This document shows positions 87-25,806 of a stretch of DNA of 27,857 nt, piece by piece. The position numbers and the translations under genes are program-made. The first letter of the stretch is position 1, and the number at the start of each line of letters is the position of its first letter. The stretch is from a virus. The DNA is taken from positions 1 to 27,857 of IMG/VR virus record IMGVR_UViG_3300046780_000851; one strand, given 5' to 3'. The notes beneath the pieces are model-generated. The model was given only the letters and a program-made list of their open reading frames with translations. It ran no database searches and was not told the origin of the DNA.

Positions 87-173
87 TGGTGCGCCGGGCT
101 GGGACTCGAACCCGCGAAGTGCTGAAGCACGCCGGGTCTACAGCCCGACCCTTTGCCGCTTGGGTACCGGCGC
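87..173 (-). tRNA. tRNA-Tyr (GTA anticodon), slightly irregular
   Basis: Read on the minus strand this folds as a class II tRNA. The 7-bp acceptor stem is GCGCCGG with CCGGCGC, followed by discriminator A and an encoded CCA. The D arm has three C-G pairs and keeps the conserved GG, the anticodon stem closes a CTGTAGA loop (anticodon GTA), and a long variable arm has a GTGC/GCAC stem. Two irregularities are visible: an unpaired A (plus-strand T100) bulges from the 3' side of an otherwise perfect T stem, and no base is left for position 26 between the D and anticodon stems. It may be a working phage tRNA or a decaying one. It sits between late genes. Confidence 0.8.
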
Positions 174-5959: not shown

Positions 5960-6066
5960 CACGGAATGCGTACTACGCATGCCGTCAACCGGCGGGTTTC
6001 CAACGAGCAAACTAGGTTCCAAGGTCGGTGCCAGCTTTTGCTCTCACCGGTAGTATCCTTCGTCGC

Positions 6067-7293
6067 ATGACCTCCCCCCGCGAAGCTTTGACTGCCGCGC
6101 GTTCGGTGTTGCCATCTCGTGCAGCATGGACAATAGGGCTCTTTGTCCTAGTCGGTGTGTTCTTGGCCGGAGCCGTCGTATACGTAATTAGTCACGCCTG
6201 CTTCGTAGCCACCGGGAGCAAGCTGCAATTTGCGCCCCTTATGTCGGGCCTGTTCAAGGTGTCGGCGTCGTTCTGCCGAGATACGACGAAGGCACCTCCT
6301 TGGCTGCTGTTGTCGGGACTGGCGGCGAGCCCATCGGTGCTGCTCACGTGGTACTGGCGGGAAGAGAAGCGGCGGGACGATCAGGTCAACAAACGCGACG
6401 AGCACCTGTTGGCGTATGAATCGGGAATTGCTGGCCGATTCACGAAGGCTGCTGAACTCCTTGCGAACGTCGATTTGATGGCGCGCACGGCGGGGCTGTT
6501 CGCCCTTTGGGACATCGCCCGAGAGTCGTCGGCACATCGACCAACGGTCAATCGCACTATCGCTGCCTACGTACGGGAGCGAGCACCACGCGCCATCGGG
6601 CTCAAACAGGAGCGGGGACGAGAGACCGTGACTGTGGTGAAGCCGAAGCCTCCTAAGCCCGACGTACAGAACGCATTGACGATTCTTGCCGATTCACACT
6701 GGAGCCAACCCGACTGGCATTCAAACGGAGCGCGAATCGAAGCAGACCTGCGCTTGACCGAGCTAAGCCTCGTTCATCTTCCTGGCGTGAATCTCAGCCG
6801 CACGATCCTGGCGAGGGCAAGACTTATATACGCAAACCTTTCTCTCTCCAACCTTGTTGAGGCGGAGCTCAGCAACGCGAACCTCGTAGGGGCAAACCTC
6901 GTCGGCTCGAATCTCACCAACGCGTCGCTCTACGAGTCGAACCTCAGAAGCGCGAGACTCAACGATGCCAAGCTTTGCGGCGCGAAACTCAGCGGCGCGA
7001 TACTCTGCGAGGCATTGCTCGCGGGGGCGGACCTCAGCGGCGCGAGCCTCGTGCAGGCAGACCTCACCAGGGCAAGTCTCGAGAGTGCAAATCTAAAGGG
7101 GGCTGACCTCACTCGCGCGAACCTCATAGAGACGAACCTCGGAGGCGCTAACCTAGTTGGCGCGGACCTCGCAAGCGCAGCCATGAACGGAGCGATTCTG
7201 CGCGACGCGCTGTACGATTCGTCAACGAAGCTACCCCACCAGTGCGACCCCGCAGCGGAGGGCATGCGACTCATAAGTACGCAGCGGACTTGA
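6067..7293 (+). CDS. Membrane-anchored pentapeptide-repeat protein
   Basis: The 408-residue protein has two membrane helices (about 22-44 and 77-96). A linker with R-F-T-K-A-A-E-L-L (124-132) and A-G-L-F-A-L-W-D-I-A follows, ending in A-A-Y-V-R-E-R-A-P. About 30 tandem A-(N/D/K)-L-x-x units follow, forming a right-handed quadrilateral beta-helix. The middle segment is the conserved module of a large bacterial family, where it usually reads R-F-T-K-A-I-E-Q-L and A-L-E-R-I-A; its function is unknown. Pentapeptide helices often mimic DNA or serve as scaffolds, but the membrane anchor argues against gyrase inhibition. ATG 6067 is used; an upstream alternative at 6028 is less likely. It is the third same-strand cargo gene and ends just before the opposing small terminase gene. 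Confidence 0.85.
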   Translation: MTSPREALTAARSVLPSRAAWTIGLFVLVGVFLAGAVVYVISHACFVATGSKLQFAPLMSGLFKVSASFCRDTTKAPPWLLLSGLAASPSVLLTWYWREEKRRDDQVNKRDEHLLAYESGIAGRFTKAAELLANVDLMARTAGLFALWDIARESSAHRPTVNRTIAAYVRERAPRAIGLKQERGRETVTVVKPKPPKPDVQNALTILADSHWSQPDWHSNGARIEADLRLTELSLVHLPGVNLSRTILARARLIYANLSLSNLVEAELSNANLVGANLVGSNLTNASLYESNLRSARLNDAKLCGAKLSGAILCEALLAGADLSGASLVQADLTRASLESANLKGADLTRANLIETNLGGANLVGADLASAAMNGAILRDALYDSSTKLPHQCDPAAEGMRLISTQRT

Positions 7294-10322: not shown

Positions 10323-10521
10323 TGAGCACCTTAGGCTTCTTCTTCGAAAAGAGTCTCTTCAGTACGGACCGCCTCACACCGGCTTGGTCCTTCCCCGCGT
10401 CCGAGACCTTCGCCGAGCATGGCCCCTCGTGTCCCTCGTTCAGTGCGCACCTGTAGATGCCACCGGGAAGAAACACGTTGTCGCCGCACTCGGGCGTGTC
10501 TTGGTCGTTGACCATCGTCAT
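10315..10521 (-). CDS. Small Cys/His protein, probably zinc-binding
   Basis: The 68-residue product has E-C-G-D-N near its start and then Y-R-C-A-L-N-E-G-H-E-G-P-C, giving the ligand set C, C, H, C of a short zinc knuckle that is widespread in phage and high-GC bacterial small proteins (C-x-L-x-x-G-H-x-G-P-C). The C-terminal end is Lys/Arg-rich and could touch nucleic acid. ATG 10521 is chosen because GGAGGG lies six bases ahead, and the TGATG overlap with the upstream stop signals coupling. Its 3' end overlaps the resolvase start by eight bases. Confidence 0.75.
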   Translation of the reverse strand: MTMVNDQDTPECGDNVFLPGGIYRCALNEGHEGPCSAKVSDAGKDQAGVRRSVLKRLFSKKKPKVLNA

Positions 10522-11189
10522 CACCCGTCCCTCCACTCCACGCTCACGAGCTCGGCACCGAGCCCATCCAGCAGCTCGCCCACCGTGAGCGAGCTGAACG
10601 TCTTGCCCTCGACGTAGCCGCGTAGGTCCGCCGCGCGCGCGAGCTCAGGCGTGAGCACCCAATCCCGACCCACCTTGTGCGCGCACCACCTGACCATGTC
10701 CCCCGGCCCCGCCCGCCCGTGCTCAAGCGCGTACGCGGCCCGCTCGAGCTCCTTGGCGGTGAACGCGCACACGCTGGACTGGACGAGCGCGTCGAAGGCG
10801 CTTCGCGCTGTCGTCCACGCCCAGTGCATGGTGGCCAGGTTGGCCTTGGCCATGCCGCCGATCGTTGGCAGCTTGCCGGCGTACTGGATGGTCCCGCGCG
10901 CCGTGTAGGCGATGGGGAACGAGCCGAGGAAGCGCACGGGCACGGTCAGCAGCTCGCGTACGGCTAGCGACGGCGCGCGAACGACACGACGTAGGGCCGC
11001 ATAGCTCGGGGCCTGCTCGCGCTTGTCCTGCTCGCCCAAGAAAGCCTTGAGCCGCTCCGCGATCCAGTCAGGCGGAGGGCCGTCGAGCTCGATACCGAGC
11101 CCGTCATCCGCAACGGAAAGGGTGATCCCGGCACTCTCACAGAGGCCGTGGAGGGCGAACGCTGTGGCGTACGTGCTCAGAGACGCCAT
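10521..11189 (-). CDS. Hypothetical protein downstream of the primase-helicase
   Basis: This 222-residue protein is not recognised with confidence. Residues 11-50 (L-C-E-S-A-G-I-T-L-S-V then L-G-I-E-L, then W-I-A-E-R-L-K-A-F-L) resemble the short helix-strand-strand-helix unit found at the start of many phage replication proteins and in TubC-type docking domains, where it reads like L-x-x-A-G-V-x-L-x-x-x-G-D-x-L-x-V. If real it might mediate contact with the primase. The rest is helical with several Trp and Ala-rich segments. It overlaps the primase gene 3' end by 13 bases and so is expressed with it. Confidence 0.7.
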   Translation of the reverse strand: MASLSTYATAFALHGLCESAGITLSVADDGLGIELDGPPPDWIAERLKAFLGEQDKREQAPSYAALRRVVRAPSLAVRELLTVPVRFLGSFPIAYTARGTIQYAGKLPTIGGMAKANLATMHWAWTTARSAFDALVQSSVCAFTAKELERAAYALEHGRAGPGDMVRWCAHKVGRDWVLTPELARAADLRGYVEGKTFSSLTVGELLDGLGAELVSVEWRDG

Positions 11190-13792
11190 TTCGAAGCCCC
11201 TTTCGCGTTGTCGTTCGAGGGCGATGCGTCTTGTAGTGAGCTGGAGGCGTCTTGTAGTGACGAGTCCTGGTCCTCGTCGAGGCTAGTCACTACAGCCTCT
11301 TTCTCGTCTCCTTCTCTATACTTATTATCTCTTGTAGTGACTTGTAGTGAGGTAGTGAGATGAGAATCGAAGGAAATCTGCTCAGACTCGTGATGTGACG
11401 CGCTCGCTAATTTGTGGATAGTGGAGGACCCCACTTCCGTCACTACGGAACCCACTACAACGCCCCCGCCTTCGATCACTTGGGGGGCCGTGCGCCAGTT
11501 TTGGGTCGCGATTTGGGTGGCTTGCTCGACAGTGTCCCGACGGGCCTTGGCCTCCTTCTCGGGGTCGGTGAGCAGCCGGACGAACTTCCAGCCGTCGCGC
11601 ACGACCTCCCGAGAGTTGCCTTTGCCGTTGCCGTCCGGCTCCTCGACTCGGACGCTGGTCCGAGAGTTTCGAGCGTCGAGGCCGTGCGCAGCCATCGCTT
11701 CCTTGAGACGTGAGGCGAACCGCCGCGAGAAGGCGGGTGGGTGGCCCTCTTCTTTGCACCAAGTGTCGTAGGCCCCACGCAGTGCCTTGCGGGAGATGTG
11801 CATCCCCTGCCCCGTGCCGAACACGCAGTTGTTGGCCAAGAACTCCCCGATGGGATCCATCTCGGCGTGATAGGCGGCGTTCGAGTCGAGGATGGCCTGG
11901 GGCTCGCGCAGCCCATCCTCGAGCCACCGTTGCACGCCGGCAACTGCCCAGGCGAACACAGCGGCGCGGACTGCGGGGTTGCTCTTCACGCGCTCGCGGA
12001 GCTCCTTGTCGGGCGTCTCGGGAGCGTTCACAAACGGGATACGCACCATGCGCCGCCACATGCCCGTGTCTTCGGCGTGGATGATGGGTGGGTCGTTGGC
12101 GACGAGCCACAACTTGAAGCTCGGAACCAGCTCGAAGCCTTCCTTGTTCAGCGTGCGCACGCTCAGCGGGGAGCCACCCGTGATGTTCTTCACGAGCCCG
12201 TTGTCGAGGCGGGCGTCGCGGTCGACCTCGTCGCAGAGCACGATGCGCGAGCCCATAAGCCGCACGAGATCGGGTCGCGGTTTGTCGCCACCTGGATCTC
12301 GGCGCGCGAGGAACGAGCTGATGTCTGCTACGCGCGCGTACTCGCCGAGGGGCGCGAGGATGGCGTTGACGAAGGTGCCTTTGCCGCGGCCGCCCGGGCC
12401 GTAGATGAAGAAGAGCTTGTCCTCGCGTGTGCTGCCCGTCAGCGAGTAACCCACGGCGCATTGCAGGTAGGCGATCATGTCGACATCGCCGCCTGTCGCT
12501 TCGTAGAGGAAGCGTGACCACAGCTCGTGCTTAGCGTCTGCGTCGTAAGCGACGGGCGCAACGCGTGTGATGAGGTCGTCGCGGCGATGCGGGCGCAGCT
12601 GGCCAGTGCGCAGGTCGACGGTGCCGTTCTCGCAGTTGACGAGCCAAGGGTCAGCGTCGAAGTGCTCGGGCTTGACGCTGATCGACTTCATCACGCTGGT
12701 GAGCTTCACCATGGCGCTGAGCCGCGCTTGCGCTTCGGAGCCCTTGGCGTGCAAGCGAATCACCATGCGGGCGTCAGCGTCTGAGGATGCATCGGCTTCG
12801 GCGTAGATGCCGCGCGCGGTGGCCATGGCGCGGCGCACGACTTGTTGCGTGGTGTCGCGCTCCCAGCGCTTGCCGGTCCAGAGGTACCAAGCGCCAATCG
12901 CCTCGCAGTAGCGCACGTCAGCGCCGTAGCGCTTCACCATGCGTTCGGCGTTGCCGAGGTCTGTGAGTGCGGTTGCGTCCGCGGGCGCGCCGGTGACAGC
13001 GGTGGTGTCGGGTGGAAGCGCGCCGTGCTCGCGTGCGTGGTCGAGCAGTTGATGGAACTCGGAGATCTCGTGGGTTGCGAGATAGTCGTCGAGCTTCGGC
13101 GCGTCTTCAGGCAAGCGCACGATGAACACGCGCGCGCCCTTGGCTTCGAGCACGCGGCCAAGCTCGAGCTCTTGCTTGCGGACTTCGGCGTTATAGAGCG
13201 CGTCGAAGTCGAAGATGATGAAGCAGTCGCGCTCCCAGTTCTCAATGTACGCGAGCTCGGGGTGTAGCGTGCGCTCGCCTTTGCGGTGCCAGCTGCTTAC
13301 GCCACCGAGCCCGAGGCAGGACACTCCCGCGCTCTCGCACGCGAGGGCCTTCTTCTCTCCTTCGGTGATGACGATGGGTTTGCCATCGCTGAGCGCACCT
13401 TGCTTCAGGAGCGAGGGACCGTAGAAGACGTGCGTACCGCTCTCTTTGCGCTGCGCGTACTTCTGAATCTTCTCGACGACGCTGCCGTCATCCTTCTTAT
13501 CTTTGAAGACGAACGGACGCGTGGGTTTTGCACGCTCGATCACCGGGTCTTGGTGAAACGGGATGTGGTAGGGGACGAACCAGGCGGGCAGCCGCTTGTC
13601 GGCCCACTCTTTCGGCGAGCGGCCGAATCGCTTCGCGGCCGCTTTGGCGTCTGCGACGAAGTGCACTTTGGCATCGACCAAGATTTGCTCGGAGATGGCG
13701 CTACCGCGGACGAGCTCCTCGACCATGGGCAGCGGCCAGCCGCGGCGCTGCGCAATCTCTTCGAGCTCGGCGTCTGTGGGCGTGCGCTTCAT
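11177..13792 (-). CDS. Primase-helicase with Toprim-like and D5/P4-type SF3 domains
   Basis: The 871-residue protein is the likely replication initiator. Residues 70-245 form a Toprim-like (DUF3854-type) domain with V-I-T-E-G-E-K-K-A-L (E145) and F-I-I-F-D-F-D (191-197). A D5_N-type region near 300-460 contains W-L-V-N-C-E-N-G-T-V-D-L. The superfamily 3 helicase has Walker A G-P-G-G-R-G-K-G-T (465-473) and Walker B I-V-L-C-D-E (517-522), then W-L-V-A-N-D-P-P-I as sensor. Proteins of this build unwind the origin and prime both strands in P4-like and many temperate phages. The last 100 residues are low-complexity Ser/Thr/Asp-rich, and their DNA holds the repeat cluster at 11230-11460. ATG 13792 overlaps the transglycosylase stop. 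Confidence 0.9.
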   Translation of the reverse strand: MKRTPTDAELEEIAQRRGWPLPMVEELVRGSAISEQILVDAKVHFVADAKAAAKRFGRSPKEWADKRLPAWFVPYHIPFHQDPVIERAKPTRPFVFKDKKDDGSVVEKIQKYAQRKESGTHVFYGPSLLKQGALSDGKPIVITEGEKKALACESAGVSCLGLGGVSSWHRKGERTLHPELAYIENWERDCFIIFDFDALYNAEVRKQELELGRVLEAKGARVFIVRLPEDAPKLDDYLATHEISEFHQLLDHAREHGALPPDTTAVTGAPADATALTDLGNAERMVKRYGADVRYCEAIGAWYLWTGKRWERDTTQQVVRRAMATARGIYAEADASSDADARMVIRLHAKGSEAQARLSAMVKLTSVMKSISVKPEHFDADPWLVNCENGTVDLRTGQLRPHRRDDLITRVAPVAYDADAKHELWSRFLYEATGGDVDMIAYLQCAVGYSLTGSTREDKLFFIYGPGGRGKGTFVNAILAPLGEYARVADISSFLARRDPGGDKPRPDLVRLMGSRIVLCDEVDRDARLDNGLVKNITGGSPLSVRTLNKEGFELVPSFKLWLVANDPPIIHAEDTGMWRRMVRIPFVNAPETPDKELRERVKSNPAVRAAVFAWAVAGVQRWLEDGLREPQAILDSNAAYHAEMDPIGEFLANNCVFGTGQGMHISRKALRGAYDTWCKEEGHPPAFSRRFASRLKEAMAAHGLDARNSRTSVRVEEPDGNGKGNSREVVRDGWKFVRLLTDPEKEAKARRDTVEQATQIATQNWRTAPQVIEGGGVVVGSVVTEVGSSTIHKLASASHHESEQISFDSHLTTSLQVTTRDNKYREGDEKEAVVTSLDEDQDSSLQDASSSLQDASPSNDNAKGASKWRL
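11230..11460. repeat. Iteron-like repeat cluster, candidate phage replication origin
   Basis: CTTGTAGTGA occurs exactly at 11230, 11251, 11331 and 11341. Shorter copies are GTAGTGA at 11352 and, inverted, TCACTACA at 11287, TCACTAC at 11440 and CACTACAA at 11453. The first pair is 21 bases apart and the pair at 11331/11341 is 10 apart, two and one helical turns. Between copies lies the most AT-rich patch of the region (11308-11332, containing ATACTTATTAT). The repeats fall in more than one reading frame of the primase gene (S-L-Q in one, T-T in another), so selection on DNA is more likely than on protein. Lambda keeps its iterons inside gene O in the same way. Confidence 0.7.
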
Positions 13793-17848: not shown

Positions 17849-17867
17849 GGCGAAAGAAGTGACACAA

Positions 17868-17881
17868 AAGTAGCGCTACTT
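17868..17881. promoter_or_regulatory. Operator site 1 (perfect 14-bp palindrome)
   Basis: AAGTAGCGCTACTT is a perfect palindrome 20 bases ahead of the Cro-like gene start. The motif AAGTAG-NN-CTACTT recurs at 17914 and 19808, the three sites flanking the immunity genes, so it is the probable target of the XRE repressor or the Cro-like protein. Confidence 0.75.
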
Positions 17882-17913
17882 CAATAACCATTGTGCGCCC
17901 GGCCACGGGTTGA

Positions 17914-17927
17914 AAGTAGCGCTAGTT
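17914..17927. promoter_or_regulatory. Operator site 2 (one mismatch)
   Basis: AAGTAGCGCTAGTT differs from site 1 at one base. Its centre lies 46 bases from the centre of site 1 and 25 bases upstream of the repressor start codon, so it probably acts in repressor autoregulation. Confidence 0.7.
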
Positions 17928-17945
17928 ATGCGCTAGGCAGTTGTA

Positions 17946-18572
17946 GTGAGCAAAACCAAGCAGTTGAGCGAGGACGAAGAATCGACGCGACGCCTGAAAA
18001 TGGCGCGTGCGATTCGCGCCGCGCGCGAGGCGGCTGGGCTCACGCAGCAAGAGCTCGCGACCCGTCTGGGTCGAAGCTTGGCGAACATCCGCTCGTGGGA
18101 GCGTGAGAAGCCGCCCGCCGCAGTGCCAGGTGGGTCGATTGCCGAAGCGTTGGCACACGCACTCGACAGCACCATGCAAGCGCTGCACATCGGGCGAGAG
18201 CCGGGTGTTCTCGATGCCGTGCTCGTGCTTGGGGATATGCAGAGAGCGGTTCTCGAGACCAAGCACTATCGCGATGCGGCCTATCCCTCGCTTCAAGAGT
18301 TTCTCAACGAGCACGAAGCCGAGGTGAGTGACGAAGAGCGGCACTGGCTCAACAGCCAGCGCTTCGCAGATGGCGATCCGGGTGATGTGAACTGGTGGGC
18401 CGGTCAGCTGATGAGCTATCGCAAGCTCAAGCGCAACAGCGCAGCTCATGCGCGAGCGCCCACGCCACGTGACGAGCGCGCTGCAAGGGACGCTGCTGCT
18501 CACGGGCGCCCGGTCATCAAAGGCTACCGCATGCTTGGTGAGTCGAAGAAAGACAAGAAGCTGAACGGCTAG
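17946..18572 (+). CDS. XRE-family repressor, CI/ImmR-like
   Basis: The 208-residue protein has a classic XRE helix-turn-helix at about residues 17-55: M-A-R-A-I-R-A-A-R-E-A-A-G-L-T-Q-Q-E-L-A-T-R-L-G, then I-R-S-W-E-R. The remaining 150 residues are helical with no LexA-type Ser-Lys protease domain visible. Together with the ImmA/IrrE gene that follows convergently, this resembles ImmR of ICEBs1 or phage repressors inactivated by a dedicated metalloprotease rather than by RecA-stimulated self-cleavage. GTG 17946 is the start; there is no strong ribosome binding site. The end overlaps the metalloprotease gene by four bases on the opposite strand. It probably binds the AAGTAG palindromes on both sides. 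Confidence 0.85.
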   Translation: MSKTKQLSEDEESTRRLKMARAIRAAREAAGLTQQELATRLGRSLANIRSWEREKPPAAVPGGSIAEALAHALDSTMQALHIGREPGVLDAVLVLGDMQRAVLETKHYRDAAYPSLQEFLNEHEAEVSDEERHWLNSQRFADGDPGDVNWWAGQLMSYRKLKRNSAAHARAPTPRDERAARDAAAHGRPVIKGYRMLGESKKDKKLNG

Positions 18573-23052: not shown

Positions 23053-23271
23053 ATGGGCGAGCCCATCAAATGGCGCGCGACTGAGTGGCGCAGCGAATGT
23101 GGAAGTTACCATTTGACCCAAGTCTTGGGCGAAGACGGCGGCCCCTTCTACGCTTACGCAATCGACAGGCGTACTTGGACGTTCGTGCCGGGCGCTGCTG
23201 GCGAGCTGATCAGCATCGAAGAGGCGAAGGCCGCAGTCGAACGCGCACGCGACGCTGAGGCGGTGCGCTGA
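23053..23271 (+). CDS. Hypothetical 72-residue protein
   Basis: This small protein has a beta-rich first half (W-R-A-T-E-W-R-S-E-C-G-S-Y-H-L-T-Q-V, then F-Y-A-Y-A-I-D) and a helical end (I-E-E-A-K-A-A-V-E-R-A-R). The beta-then-helix form fits a small domain. Its stop overlaps the start of the RecD2 N-domain gene as TGATG, so the two are translated together. Function unknown. Confidence 0.65.
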   Translation: MGEPIKWRATEWRSECGSYHLTQVLGEDGGPFYAYAIDRRTWTFVPGAAGELISIEEAKAAVERARDAEAVR

Positions 23272-24206
23272 TGGCCCGCTCATCATCACCGCGCCGTGCG
23301 CCCGCTGGCGAGAAGCTTCGCGGCGAGCTCGTGGACTGGCGCAACTGGAAAGAGGGCTGGGGCTTCGGTTCTCTATTGACGAAGCACGACGGCGGTAAGC
23401 AGAAGATCACGGGCACGCTGCTCATGCCGAAGCTGGGCGCGACGCTCGAGCTCACCGGTAGCTTCGTCACCGGCAAGTACGGACCGGAGTTCAAGTTCAC
23501 CGGCGCCGAAGAGCTCGTGCCCGAGGACGCCAACGGCGTGGTTGCGTGGCTCGCGTCGACACTCCCGCAGATCTCCCGTGAGCGCGCCACCAAGATCGTG
23601 GGTCAGCTCGGCATCGAAGGAACGTGGCGCGTGCTGGATGGGCGCGACGCGAACGAGCTTTGCAAGTTCGACGGCATCACGCTGGCGCGAGCGAACGAGA
23701 TCTTCGACGCGTACGACGCGGCGAAGGGCGACCGCGACCGCATGGTGGCGCTCAAGAGCTACGGACTGACCGACAACCAGATCGCGCGCATTCAGGTCGC
23801 GTGGGGCGACAAGGCGCTCGAGAACCTGCGCGACAACCCGTACGCGCTGATCGAGATGGTCAGTGGCTTTGGCTGGACGCGCGCTGACGTGGTCGCGCTC
23901 AAGATGGGCTTGCCTAAGGATGCCGAGCCGCGCCTGCGCGCTGGGCTGATGCACAAGCTCGGCGAGGCTCAGTTCGAAGGGCACTGCTACTGCCCGGGCG
24001 GCAAGCTCGTGAAGACGGTAGCGGACGCCAAGATGTGCGGCGTGCGCGAAGAGAGCGTGCGCGACGTGCTCGAGGACATGGTGCGCAAGGGCGAGCTCGT
24101 CAGGAGAGGCACAGGCGTGTTTCTGCCTGGTCTCGCTGGCAAGGAGCAGGCGCTTGCGGAGTCGTTCGCGGCGCGCGTGAAGGCGCAGAAGGCGAGGGCA
24201 GCGTGA
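23271..24206 (+). CDS. RecD2-like N-terminal domain as a separate protein
   Basis: The 311-residue protein corresponds to the N-terminal half of RecD2-type helicases. It has an OB-like start (W-G-F-G-S-L, then K-I-T-G-T-L-L, L-E-L-T-G-S-F, and Y-G-P-E-F-K-F). Helix-hairpin-helix repeats follow (L-P-Q-I-S-R-E-R-A-T-K-I-V-G-Q-L-G, and N-P-Y-A-L-I-E-M-V-S-G-F-G-W), and then a winged-helix-like part (V-R-D-V-L-E-D-M-V-R-K-G-E-L-V). In RecD2 this continues directly into the ATPase, but here it stops and the ATPase is encoded 240 bases later. The proteins presumably re-associate; alone this one has no ATPase motif. Start ATG 23271. Confidence 0.8.
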   Translation: MARSSSPRRAPAGEKLRGELVDWRNWKEGWGFGSLLTKHDGGKQKITGTLLMPKLGATLELTGSFVTGKYGPEFKFTGAEELVPEDANGVVAWLASTLPQISRERATKIVGQLGIEGTWRVLDGRDANELCKFDGITLARANEIFDAYDAAKGDRDRMVALKSYGLTDNQIARIQVAWGDKALENLRDNPYALIEMVSGFGWTRADVVALKMGLPKDAEPRLRAGLMHKLGEAQFEGHCYCPGGKLVKTVADAKMCGVREESVRDVLEDMVRKGELVRRGTGVFLPGLAGKEQALAESFAARVKAQKARAA

Positions 24207-24442
24207 CGTTTGTCGATGTCGATGGTTTCGCCGTAGTGGTTGAGCGCAGCCACTACAGCCCCGGCATGGTTTCCGTGCGGGATAGCAAAACCTGGGTCCC
24301 GTTTGCTCTCTTCGACGCGAACACCGCTGAACGTGTCGGGGAACACCTCATCAGTCTTGCGCGCAGTCTCCGAATCGCCATGGCCACGTCGGGCGCAGAG
24401 AACGTCGACGCAGACGGCCGCGAGGTGCTGCCGTGCAGCTAG
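24203..24442 (+). CDS. Small protein between the two halves of RecD2
   Basis: The 79-residue product starts at GTG 24203, overlapping the stop before it, and its end overlaps the next start by ten bases, so it is fully embedded between the two RecD2 parts. It has beta strands (F-V-D-V-D-G-F-A-V-V-V-E-R and W-V-P-F-A-L-F-D), then a helix (R-V-G-E-H-L-I-S-L-A-R-S-L-R), and resembles no known family. It is a candidate linker or modulator of the split helicase. Confidence 0.65.
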   Translation: MTFVDVDGFAVVVERSHYSPGMVSVRDSKTWVPFALFDANTAERVGEHLISLARSLRIAMATSGAENVDADGREVLPCS

Positions 24443-25806
24443 ATCCCTCCCAAGAGCTAGCTGTCGAGCTCGCGTGCACGGCGCCCTTCTGCATCCTCAC
24501 GGGCGGCCCGGGCACCGGAAAATCAACGTGCTTGCGCGTCGCGCTCGATCGTATGGACGAGGCCGGCGAGACCTACCGGCTCGCCTCGCCCACTGGCAAG
24601 GCGGCCAAGCGCATGACCGAGACCACCGGCCGGCCAGCGACGACGATTCATCGCTTGCTCGAGTGGCGCGGCGTGTTCCAGCGCAACGCGCGCAATCCCA
24701 TCGAGGCTGACGTGGTCATCATCGACGAGGTGTCGATGCTCGACACGCCGCTCGCGTGCGACCTGCTCGACGCGTGTGGACCGAAGACGCGCATCGTGTT
24801 CGTTGGGGACAGCGACCAGCTCCCGAGCGTAGGCCCGGGACGCGTGCTCGCTGACTTGGTCGAGTCCGGCGAGGTGCCGATCGCGCGCCTCACCACCGTG
24901 CACCGAGCCGCGATGGAGAGCTGGGTGTGCCGCAACGCGCCCAAGGTGCTGAGCGGCGGCCCGCTCGAGCTCGAGGACTGCAACGACTTCCGCTTCGTGG
25001 AGTGCGCTGAGGCTGACGACTGCGCGGCTGGCGTGGAGCGCGTGCTGATCGAGCTCAAGGGCGCAGCACAAGTGCTCAGCCCGCAGCGCACCACTGCGTG
25101 CGGCGTGAAAGCCCTCAACGTGCGCATGCAACGGGTGCTCAACCCCGCGAGCGAGAACAAGCCCGAGTGGGTGCTGGGCAAAGGAGAAGACGCGACCACC
25201 TATCGCATCGGTGATCGCGTCATCCAAACCAAGAACAACTACGAGCTCGAGGTGTTCAACGGCGAGGTGGGGCAGGTCGTGCACTTCGAGGCCGATGGCC
25301 TGATGGCCGTCGACTTCGGAGACCGCAAGGTCCAGTACACGAAGCAAAGCGCCTTCGAGCTCGACTTGGCCTACGCGCTCACGGTCCACAAGAGCCAAGG
25401 ATCTGAGTTCCCTTGGGCCATCGTCGTCGTGCACAGCGCACACACGTACATGCTGACGCGCAACCTTCTTTACACCGGGATCACGCGCGCGAAGAAGGGC
25501 GTGATCATCGTGGGCAACCGCGCGGGCCTGCGCGCAGCTATCGAAGCGAAGGACCCGCCCAAGCGCAACACGAAGCTCGTCGAGCGCATGCGGGAGATCT
25601 TGCAGCCCGAGAGCGCGCCCAGCGAGCCCAAGAACGACGCCGAACTGTGCTCATTGGCGGCCGCTCAAGAGATCGAGCGTGGCGGCGAGCAGTGGGACCG
25701 CGAGCAACAAGCAGAGCGCGGCGAGCCAGCCAACACGAACGCAACCGCGCCGGCAACCAACAACCAGTCAGCTCCGGCAACGGTTAGCGATGACATCCCC
25801 TGGTAG
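24433..25806 (+). CDS. RecD2-like superfamily 1B helicase, ATPase half
   Basis: The 457-residue protein has all the helicase motifs in order. These are I (G-G-P-G-T-G-K-S, 24-31), Ia (S-P-T-G-K-A-A-K-R-M), II (V-I-I-D-E-V-S-M-L, D98 and E99), III (G-D-S-D-Q-L-P-S-V, 125-133), IV (V-H-R-A-A), V (T-V-H-K-S-Q-G-S-E-F, 317-326) and VI (L-L-Y-T-G-I-T-R-A-K, 345-354). These mark a 5'-to-3' DNA helicase of the RecD/RecD2 group. The C-terminal 80 residues are disordered and end in D-D-I-P-W, a motif often found at the acidic ends of SSB proteins, which dock partner proteins. It starts at GTG 24433, inside the preceding gene. The N-terminal domain is in the gene at 23271. Confidence 0.88.
   Translation: MQLDPSQELAVELACTAPFCILTGGPGTGKSTCLRVALDRMDEAGETYRLASPTGKAAKRMTETTGRPATTIHRLLEWRGVFQRNARNPIEADVVIIDEVSMLDTPLACDLLDACGPKTRIVFVGDSDQLPSVGPGRVLADLVESGEVPIARLTTVHRAAMESWVCRNAPKVLSGGPLELEDCNDFRFVECAEADDCAAGVERVLIELKGAAQVLSPQRTTACGVKALNVRMQRVLNPASENKPEWVLGKGEDATTYRIGDRVIQTKNNYELEVFNGEVGQVVHFEADGLMAVDFGDRKVQYTKQSAFELDLAYALTVHKSQGSEFPWAIVVVHSAHTYMLTRNLLYTGITRAKKGVIIVGNRAGLRAAIEAKDPPKRNTKLVERMREILQPESAPSEPKNDAELCSLAAAQEIERGGEQWDREQQAERGEPANTNATAPATNNQSAPATVSDDIPW

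Follow-up and report, generated by a model that had tools for sequence, protein, structure and literature searches.

A candidate replication origin within the 3' end of a phage P4-family primase-helicase gene

Near its 3' end, the primase-helicase gene of a phage carries a cluster of short DNA repeats in both orientations, which raises the question of whether these repeats serve the encoded protein, the control of a neighbouring gene, or the replication of the DNA itself. An earlier note on this DNA had proposed the last of these, with the replication protein of the phage itself recognising the origin. The window, that is the whole stretch of DNA analysed here, is the complete IMG/VR virus record IMGVR_UViG_3300046780_000851 (27,857 bases); this record may represent only part of the phage genome. 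Terminase and portal genes are present, and the window also encodes a helix-turn-helix (HTH) regulator and a protein with a metallopeptidase domain. A portal search for close relatives of the phage returned two contigs with a related terminase and no primase in the stretch covered. At the left end of the window lies a tRNA-Tyr gene (anticodon GTA; 87-173, minus strand), which may be phage cargo or the mark of an integration site. A RecD2-like protein is apparently split over two frames (23271-24206 and 24433-25806), with an HHH domain in one frame and the helicase domains in the next.

The gene that contains the repeats and the two parts of its product that matter here are as follows.

11177 to 13792, minus strand: P4-family primase-helicase gene (871 aa), with DUF3854, D5_N, an SF3-type helicase, a C-terminal winged-helix-type domain and a disordered tail
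11573 to 11827, minus strand: predicted C-terminal winged-helix-type domain (residues 656-740), the candidate iteron reader, from AlphaFold2 and alignment with relatives
11180 to 11503, minus strand: disordered tail (residues 764-871) spanning the iteron array, from pLDDT; absent from most relatives

Pfam returned D5_N (1.2e-36), DUF3854 (2.2e-17) and DUF5906 (1.7e-8), the PHROG match was DNA primase, and residues 384-692 scored 253.3 bits against NCBIfam TIGR01613, for which the curated cut-off is 108.7, placing the protein within that family. The best PDB sequence match was the SaPI5 primase-helicase (7ola, E 3.7e-7), which also aligned in the fold search with a TM of 0.71 on its own length; ranked by Foldseek E-value, primases of large eukaryotic viruses stood above it. 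AlphaFold2 modelled the helicase with confidence, and likewise a C-terminal domain at about 656-740, the blocks of which had pLDDT values of 75-97. This domain is predicted to contain two helices (668-682 and 689-702) and a beta hairpin (709-736), an arrangement compatible with a winged helix. Beyond it, pLDDT falls to about 30-36 over nearly the whole of residues 764-871, in agreement with the disordered tail that the earlier note had expected from the sequence, and the iterons map to residues 779-855, entirely within this predicted tail.

The repeats were then located individually, with the following result.

11230 to 11239, plus strand: iteron 1, CTTGTAGTGA
11251 to 11260, plus strand: iteron 2, CTTGTAGTGA, 21 bp from iteron 1
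11287 to 11296, minus strand: iteron 3, inverted, GCTGTAGTGA
11331 to 11340, plus strand: iteron 4, CTTGTAGTGA
11341 to 11350, plus strand: iteron 5, CTTGTAGTGA, 10 bp from iteron 4
11352 to 11358, plus strand: iteron 6, core GTAGTGA
11440 to 11446, minus strand: iteron 7, inverted, core GTAGTGA
11452 to 11461, minus strand: iteron 8, inverted, GTTGTAGTGG
11317 to 11366: candidate melting site, where the DNA of the window is least stable and richest in AT; carries iterons 4-6

The core GTAGTG was found eight times within 11233-11458, with five copies on the plus strand (starting at 11233, 11254, 11334, 11344 and 11352) and three on the minus strand (11288, 11441 and 11453). Our recount thus agrees with the eight GTAGTG(A) cores in 231 bases, in both orientations and four of them exact, that had been described before. 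The spacings of 21 and 10 bp given there are also correct, since the exact copies of CTTGTAGTGA start at 11230, 11251, 11331 and 11341. Steps of 10 and 8 bp separate the iterons at 11334-11358, and this short-repeat spacing at the 3' end of a primase gene matches the P4-type layout. The whole array (11230-11461) lies inside the gene, the stop codon of which is at 11177-11179. The longer word GTAGTGA occurs seven times in the cluster and once elsewhere in the window (17943), and none of 100 whole-window shuffles reached eight copies. No second GTAGTGA array was detected in the 27.9 kb, where the word otherwise appears in single copies only. The sole other significant repeat cluster in the window consists of coding repeats at 6.8-7.2 kb, in the gene for a pentapeptide-repeat protein (421 aa, 6028-7293) that adjoins the structural genes.

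Inside a gene shuffling has little power as a test, and therefore the amino acid sequence was kept fixed while synonymous codons were redistributed along the tail. Under this treatment GTAGTGA occurred 0.7 times on average and at most five times in 5000 trials, and the seven copies observed were reached in none of them. A looser consensus test (10-mer, up to two mismatches) was weaker for the window, with 4 of 500 permutations reaching the observed six. Third codon positions have a GC content of 0.83 in the core of the gene and of about 0.5 across the array. The iterons are read out as SLQ (three copies), as LTT and VTT in the same orientation but another frame, and as VVT and VVG in the opposite orientation. 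Because of the codon re-dealing result, the fall in third-position GC and the three kinds of peptide encoded, the array stretch is constrained as DNA. Both parts of the earlier argument are thus borne out, namely that the repeats encode different amino acids in different frames and that they look selected as DNA. The converse explanation, in which selection acted on a repeated peptide (SSLQDASSSLQDAS and similar) and not on the DNA, can point to SLQDAS, which occurs twice, close together. It does not account for one DNA word giving unrelated peptides in two frames and on both strands, nor for an excess of GTAGTGA that persists with the protein fixed; furthermore, the tail is predicted to be disordered and its peptide is not common to relatives. 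We give this explanation next to no credence, and it was rejected on the protein-preserving codon test. The reading frame runs through the array, and the tail peptide is therefore probably in large part a by-product of the DNA-level constraint. The suggestion of the earlier note to this effect fits the comparison with related sequences, in which the tail peptide is unconserved: relatives have tails that are for the most part short and unlike one another, and that of the window is missing from most of them.

The DNA of the array was further examined for properties that accompany replication origins. Over the whole window, AT content is highest in the 60 bp from 11318 and stability lowest in the 50 bp from 11317, so that the AT-rich patch noted earlier among the repeats proves to be the extreme of the window. 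Iterons flank this patch on both sides and three of them overlap it, in irregular sets; relatives such as loci L086 or L098 have more regular opposed sets. The minimum of the cumulative GC skew is at 10752, about 0.5 kb from the array, and in genes on the same strand the G/C skew at fourfold sites shifts from -0.04 before the array to +0.24 after it (p 1e-7). This change is compatible with an origin; mosaic gene ancestry could be an alternative cause. A DnaA-box role was considered and dropped, as the sole one-mismatch DnaA word in the window (11413, within the array) is at the level of one expected by chance and DnaA boxes are not enriched in the arrays of the primase family.

If the array belongs to the replication system of this primase family, similar placement should be visible in relatives with other repeat words, as the earlier note had proposed to check. 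A single-sequence scan of genome contigs gave no relatives, and an alignment-based search succeeded. The survey, to which 80 viral and 80 genome loci were added after the first twelve, covered 169 loci, a cluster being defined as an 8-mer repeated at least four times, and more often than by chance, within the 500 nt that follow the helicase core. Such a cluster was present in 74 of the 169 loci, which were gathered via conserved-peptide searches and are not a random sample, compared with 0/174, 3/153, 4/143 and 3/149 of the control stretches (0-3%). After thinning of related proteins, 39 of 111 loci retained a cluster. No cluster was found in 56% of the surveyed loci at the threshold used, which misses degenerate arrays. 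The expected placement with different iterons is therefore seen in relatives.

The repeat words differ between loci, as several of the first twelve already showed: mycobacteriophage CrimD carries GGCACAGAT seven times after its primase, and the repeats at the primase loci of Bacillus phage phi105, an Enterococcus phage, a Singulisphaera plasmid and Microvirga are AGTAACA, ACTATTCAC, AGGGTACT and GGTGACG, respectively. The spacing is common to them, with tandem neighbours 9-10 bp apart. Neighbours at 8-12 bp are on the same strand in 82 cases against nine on opposite strands, whereas gaps of 55-80 bp separate opposite-strand copies in 43 cases and same-strand copies in 19. In the first survey, 44 of 47 arrays had their AT maximum between the outer iterons. 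The winged-helix and iteron sequences covaried weakly (partial rank correlation 0.10, permutation p 0.04), and this was dropped as support.

Several characterised systems show a comparable arrangement. The SaPI Rep protein recognises iterons just downstream of its own gene through its C-terminal domain, and its reported mechanism is of the ring assembly and melting type, for which SCCmec Cch2 provides in vitro support (PMC7581432). A unit of rep and ori from a PICI replicates a plasmid (PMC6092414). The window resembles the SaPI/PICI pri-rep-ori in its D5-type core initiator helicase (SaPI5) and its 3'-end iterons (PMC6092414, PMC7581432). The SaPI/PICI origins have two iteron sets around an AT-rich patch (PMC6092414, PMC7581432); in the window, iterons lie on either side of such a patch, in irregular sets and with three iterons overlapping it. 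Those origins come after the gene and have another iteron sequence, although the place of the array with respect to the predicted DNA-binding domain is the same, and the window belongs to a phage with terminase and portal genes. SCCmec Cch2 is likewise a D5-type helicase whose C-terminal domain, also when isolated, binds DNA with short direct repeats just behind its own gene (PMC7581432), but these are only three 5-nt iterons (AAGTG) in an intergenic position, and its primase is a separate protein. Origins within the coding sequence of their own initiator are found in the lambda O gene (PMC7157519) and in repC of repABC plasmids (PMC3155836), although these initiators are of unrelated families and the repC origin lacks iterons (PMC3155836). 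The orf904 protein of plasmid pRN1 is a primase-helicase with an SF3 helicase and has essential DNA directly 3' of its gene (PMC4234260); this element is a stem-loop, and no iterons were found in it. The classic iteron plasmid origin (17-22 bp iterons plus DnaA boxes) is not matched by a core of 7-10 bp with a DnaA word at chance level. For the Sfi21-type origins of Streptococcus phages, the literature search gave only a secondary mention of a replication-module ori (PMC6356513).

The comparison with P4 supplies the main rival. P4 alpha aligns with residues 363-717 of the window protein (E 1e-8), and in both elements the 3' end of a P4-family primase-helicase gene is accompanied by short repeats that follow each other at about 9 bp and occur in either orientation. 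In the annotated P4 record this array is crr; it starts less than 50 bp after the alpha stop codon, and its 8-bp type 1 repeats, found in either orientation, are spaced by 9 bp. The type 1 repeat is GGTGAACA and lies outside alpha, unlike the GTAGTGA of the window, which lies inside the gene. Since the named origin of P4 (ori1), with the same type 1 repeats, is about 4.7 kb from crr, the array of the window might correspondingly be a cis element like crr, to which the primase-helicase would bind and on which replication or copy control would depend, with synthesis starting elsewhere. A second array could lie outside the window if this is a fragment, but none is present in its 27.9 kb. The array also contains the least stable DNA of the window, with the cumulative skew minimum only about 0.5 kb off, and PICI origins at the equivalent position work together with rep (PMC6092414). 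A crr-like role is accordingly judged improbable. We regard the array as very probably the initiator-binding replication origin of the phage, or its essential cis core; the proposal of the earlier note is supported in every part that could be checked on sequence.

The candidate reader of the repeats is likely the primase-helicase and not the 222-residue neighbour, because no relative of the latter was found and arrays in the family follow the primase. The neighbour (222 aa, 10521-11189), which comes directly after the primase gene, had no family match and no viral contig relative, and was set aside as an iteron reader. In the mechanism that we propose, the primase-helicase would bind the GTAGTGA iterons via its predicted C-terminal winged-helix-type domain and assemble as helicase rings on the iteron sets. 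It would then open the AT-rich patch near 11317-11366 and prime DNA synthesis there.

Regulation offers another use for such repeats, which could be the operator or promoter sites through which a transcription regulator controls the replication operon or the 222-residue gene (start 11189), and the array does end about 40 bp before the start codon of that gene. The HTH regulator gene, too, has a single near-copy of the iteron, GTTGTAGTGA, which overlaps its GTG start codon (17940-17949); about one such core is expected by chance. The control region of this regulator has its own, different palindromes: a palindromic word occurs twice at 17865-17930 (AAAGTAGCGCTACTT and AAAGTAGCGCTAGTT, 46 bp apart), between divergent genes before the regulator, and these are likely the operators of a lysogeny switch. 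Arrays in relatives stay behind the primase whichever gene comes next, and eight sites in 230 bp with steps of 8-10 bp and inverted copies are a better fit to initiator arrays. An operator function is thus highly improbable, and the origin reading is retained.

In relatives, the array usually begins near the stop codon and continues behind it. When the in-gene state was defined as at least 70% of the array within the gene, ten arrays qualified (the window, L015, L019, L086, L116, L137, L140, L143, L146 and L167). The protein-preserving test on the commonest 7-mer was passed at 1/500 or less by L015, L019, L086, L116, L137, L140, L146 and L167, and failed by L143 (60/500). The archaeal contig L140 (Candidatus Methanoperedens) encodes the same kind of primase and has ten iterons, all within a 225-residue tail. 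Iterons placed 9 bp apart surface as tripeptide runs, such as GQQGQQGQQGQQGQQ in L116 and NLVNLVNL and GSQGSQGSQGSQ in L086. As these runs (NLV, GSQ, GQQ) are read-outs of 9-bp iterons, a low-complexity tail in this family may be the sign of an origin. Mapped onto a tree of 45 helicase cores, the in-gene state requires seven changes, of which well supported branches force at least three, and the overlap of origin and coding sequence therefore arose several times. Whether it was selected for, and is not incidental, is a more tentative matter; we consider such selection possible but rather doubtful.

It is already known that iterons are tied to the 3' end of SF3/D5-type initiator genes and that origins lie within the initiator genes of other families. 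In the largely open-access literature searched, we did not find a description of an in-gene array of this kind, of its repeated appearance or of its breadth. What appears to be new, with due caution and as judged from sequence comparison, is that the arrangement extends to tailed phages and plasmids from many phyla and that origin and coding sequence have come to overlap repeatedly.

These results suggest a rule for finding the origin of phages and plasmids with a P4-family primase, which is to check the 3' end of the gene, inside it or just after it, for repeats of 7-10 bp placed 9-10 bp apart in opposed sets. At the sequence level, this layout is seen across many phyla, in plasmids and tailed phages as well as in genome contigs. 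The odd low-complexity tails of annotated primases would thereby be explained as DNA signals. If the overlap is indeed selected, initiator and origin would be welded into one mobile cassette in which iteron and reader domain could change together, and transcription and translation of the initiator would cross its own origin, giving cis-acting control. The 9-bp iterons would then have left their footprints in the tail tripeptides (GQQ, GSQ, NLV), from which the origin of each element could be predicted. The evolution of origin specificity could be tested across dozens of naturally diverged pairs of reader and iteron.
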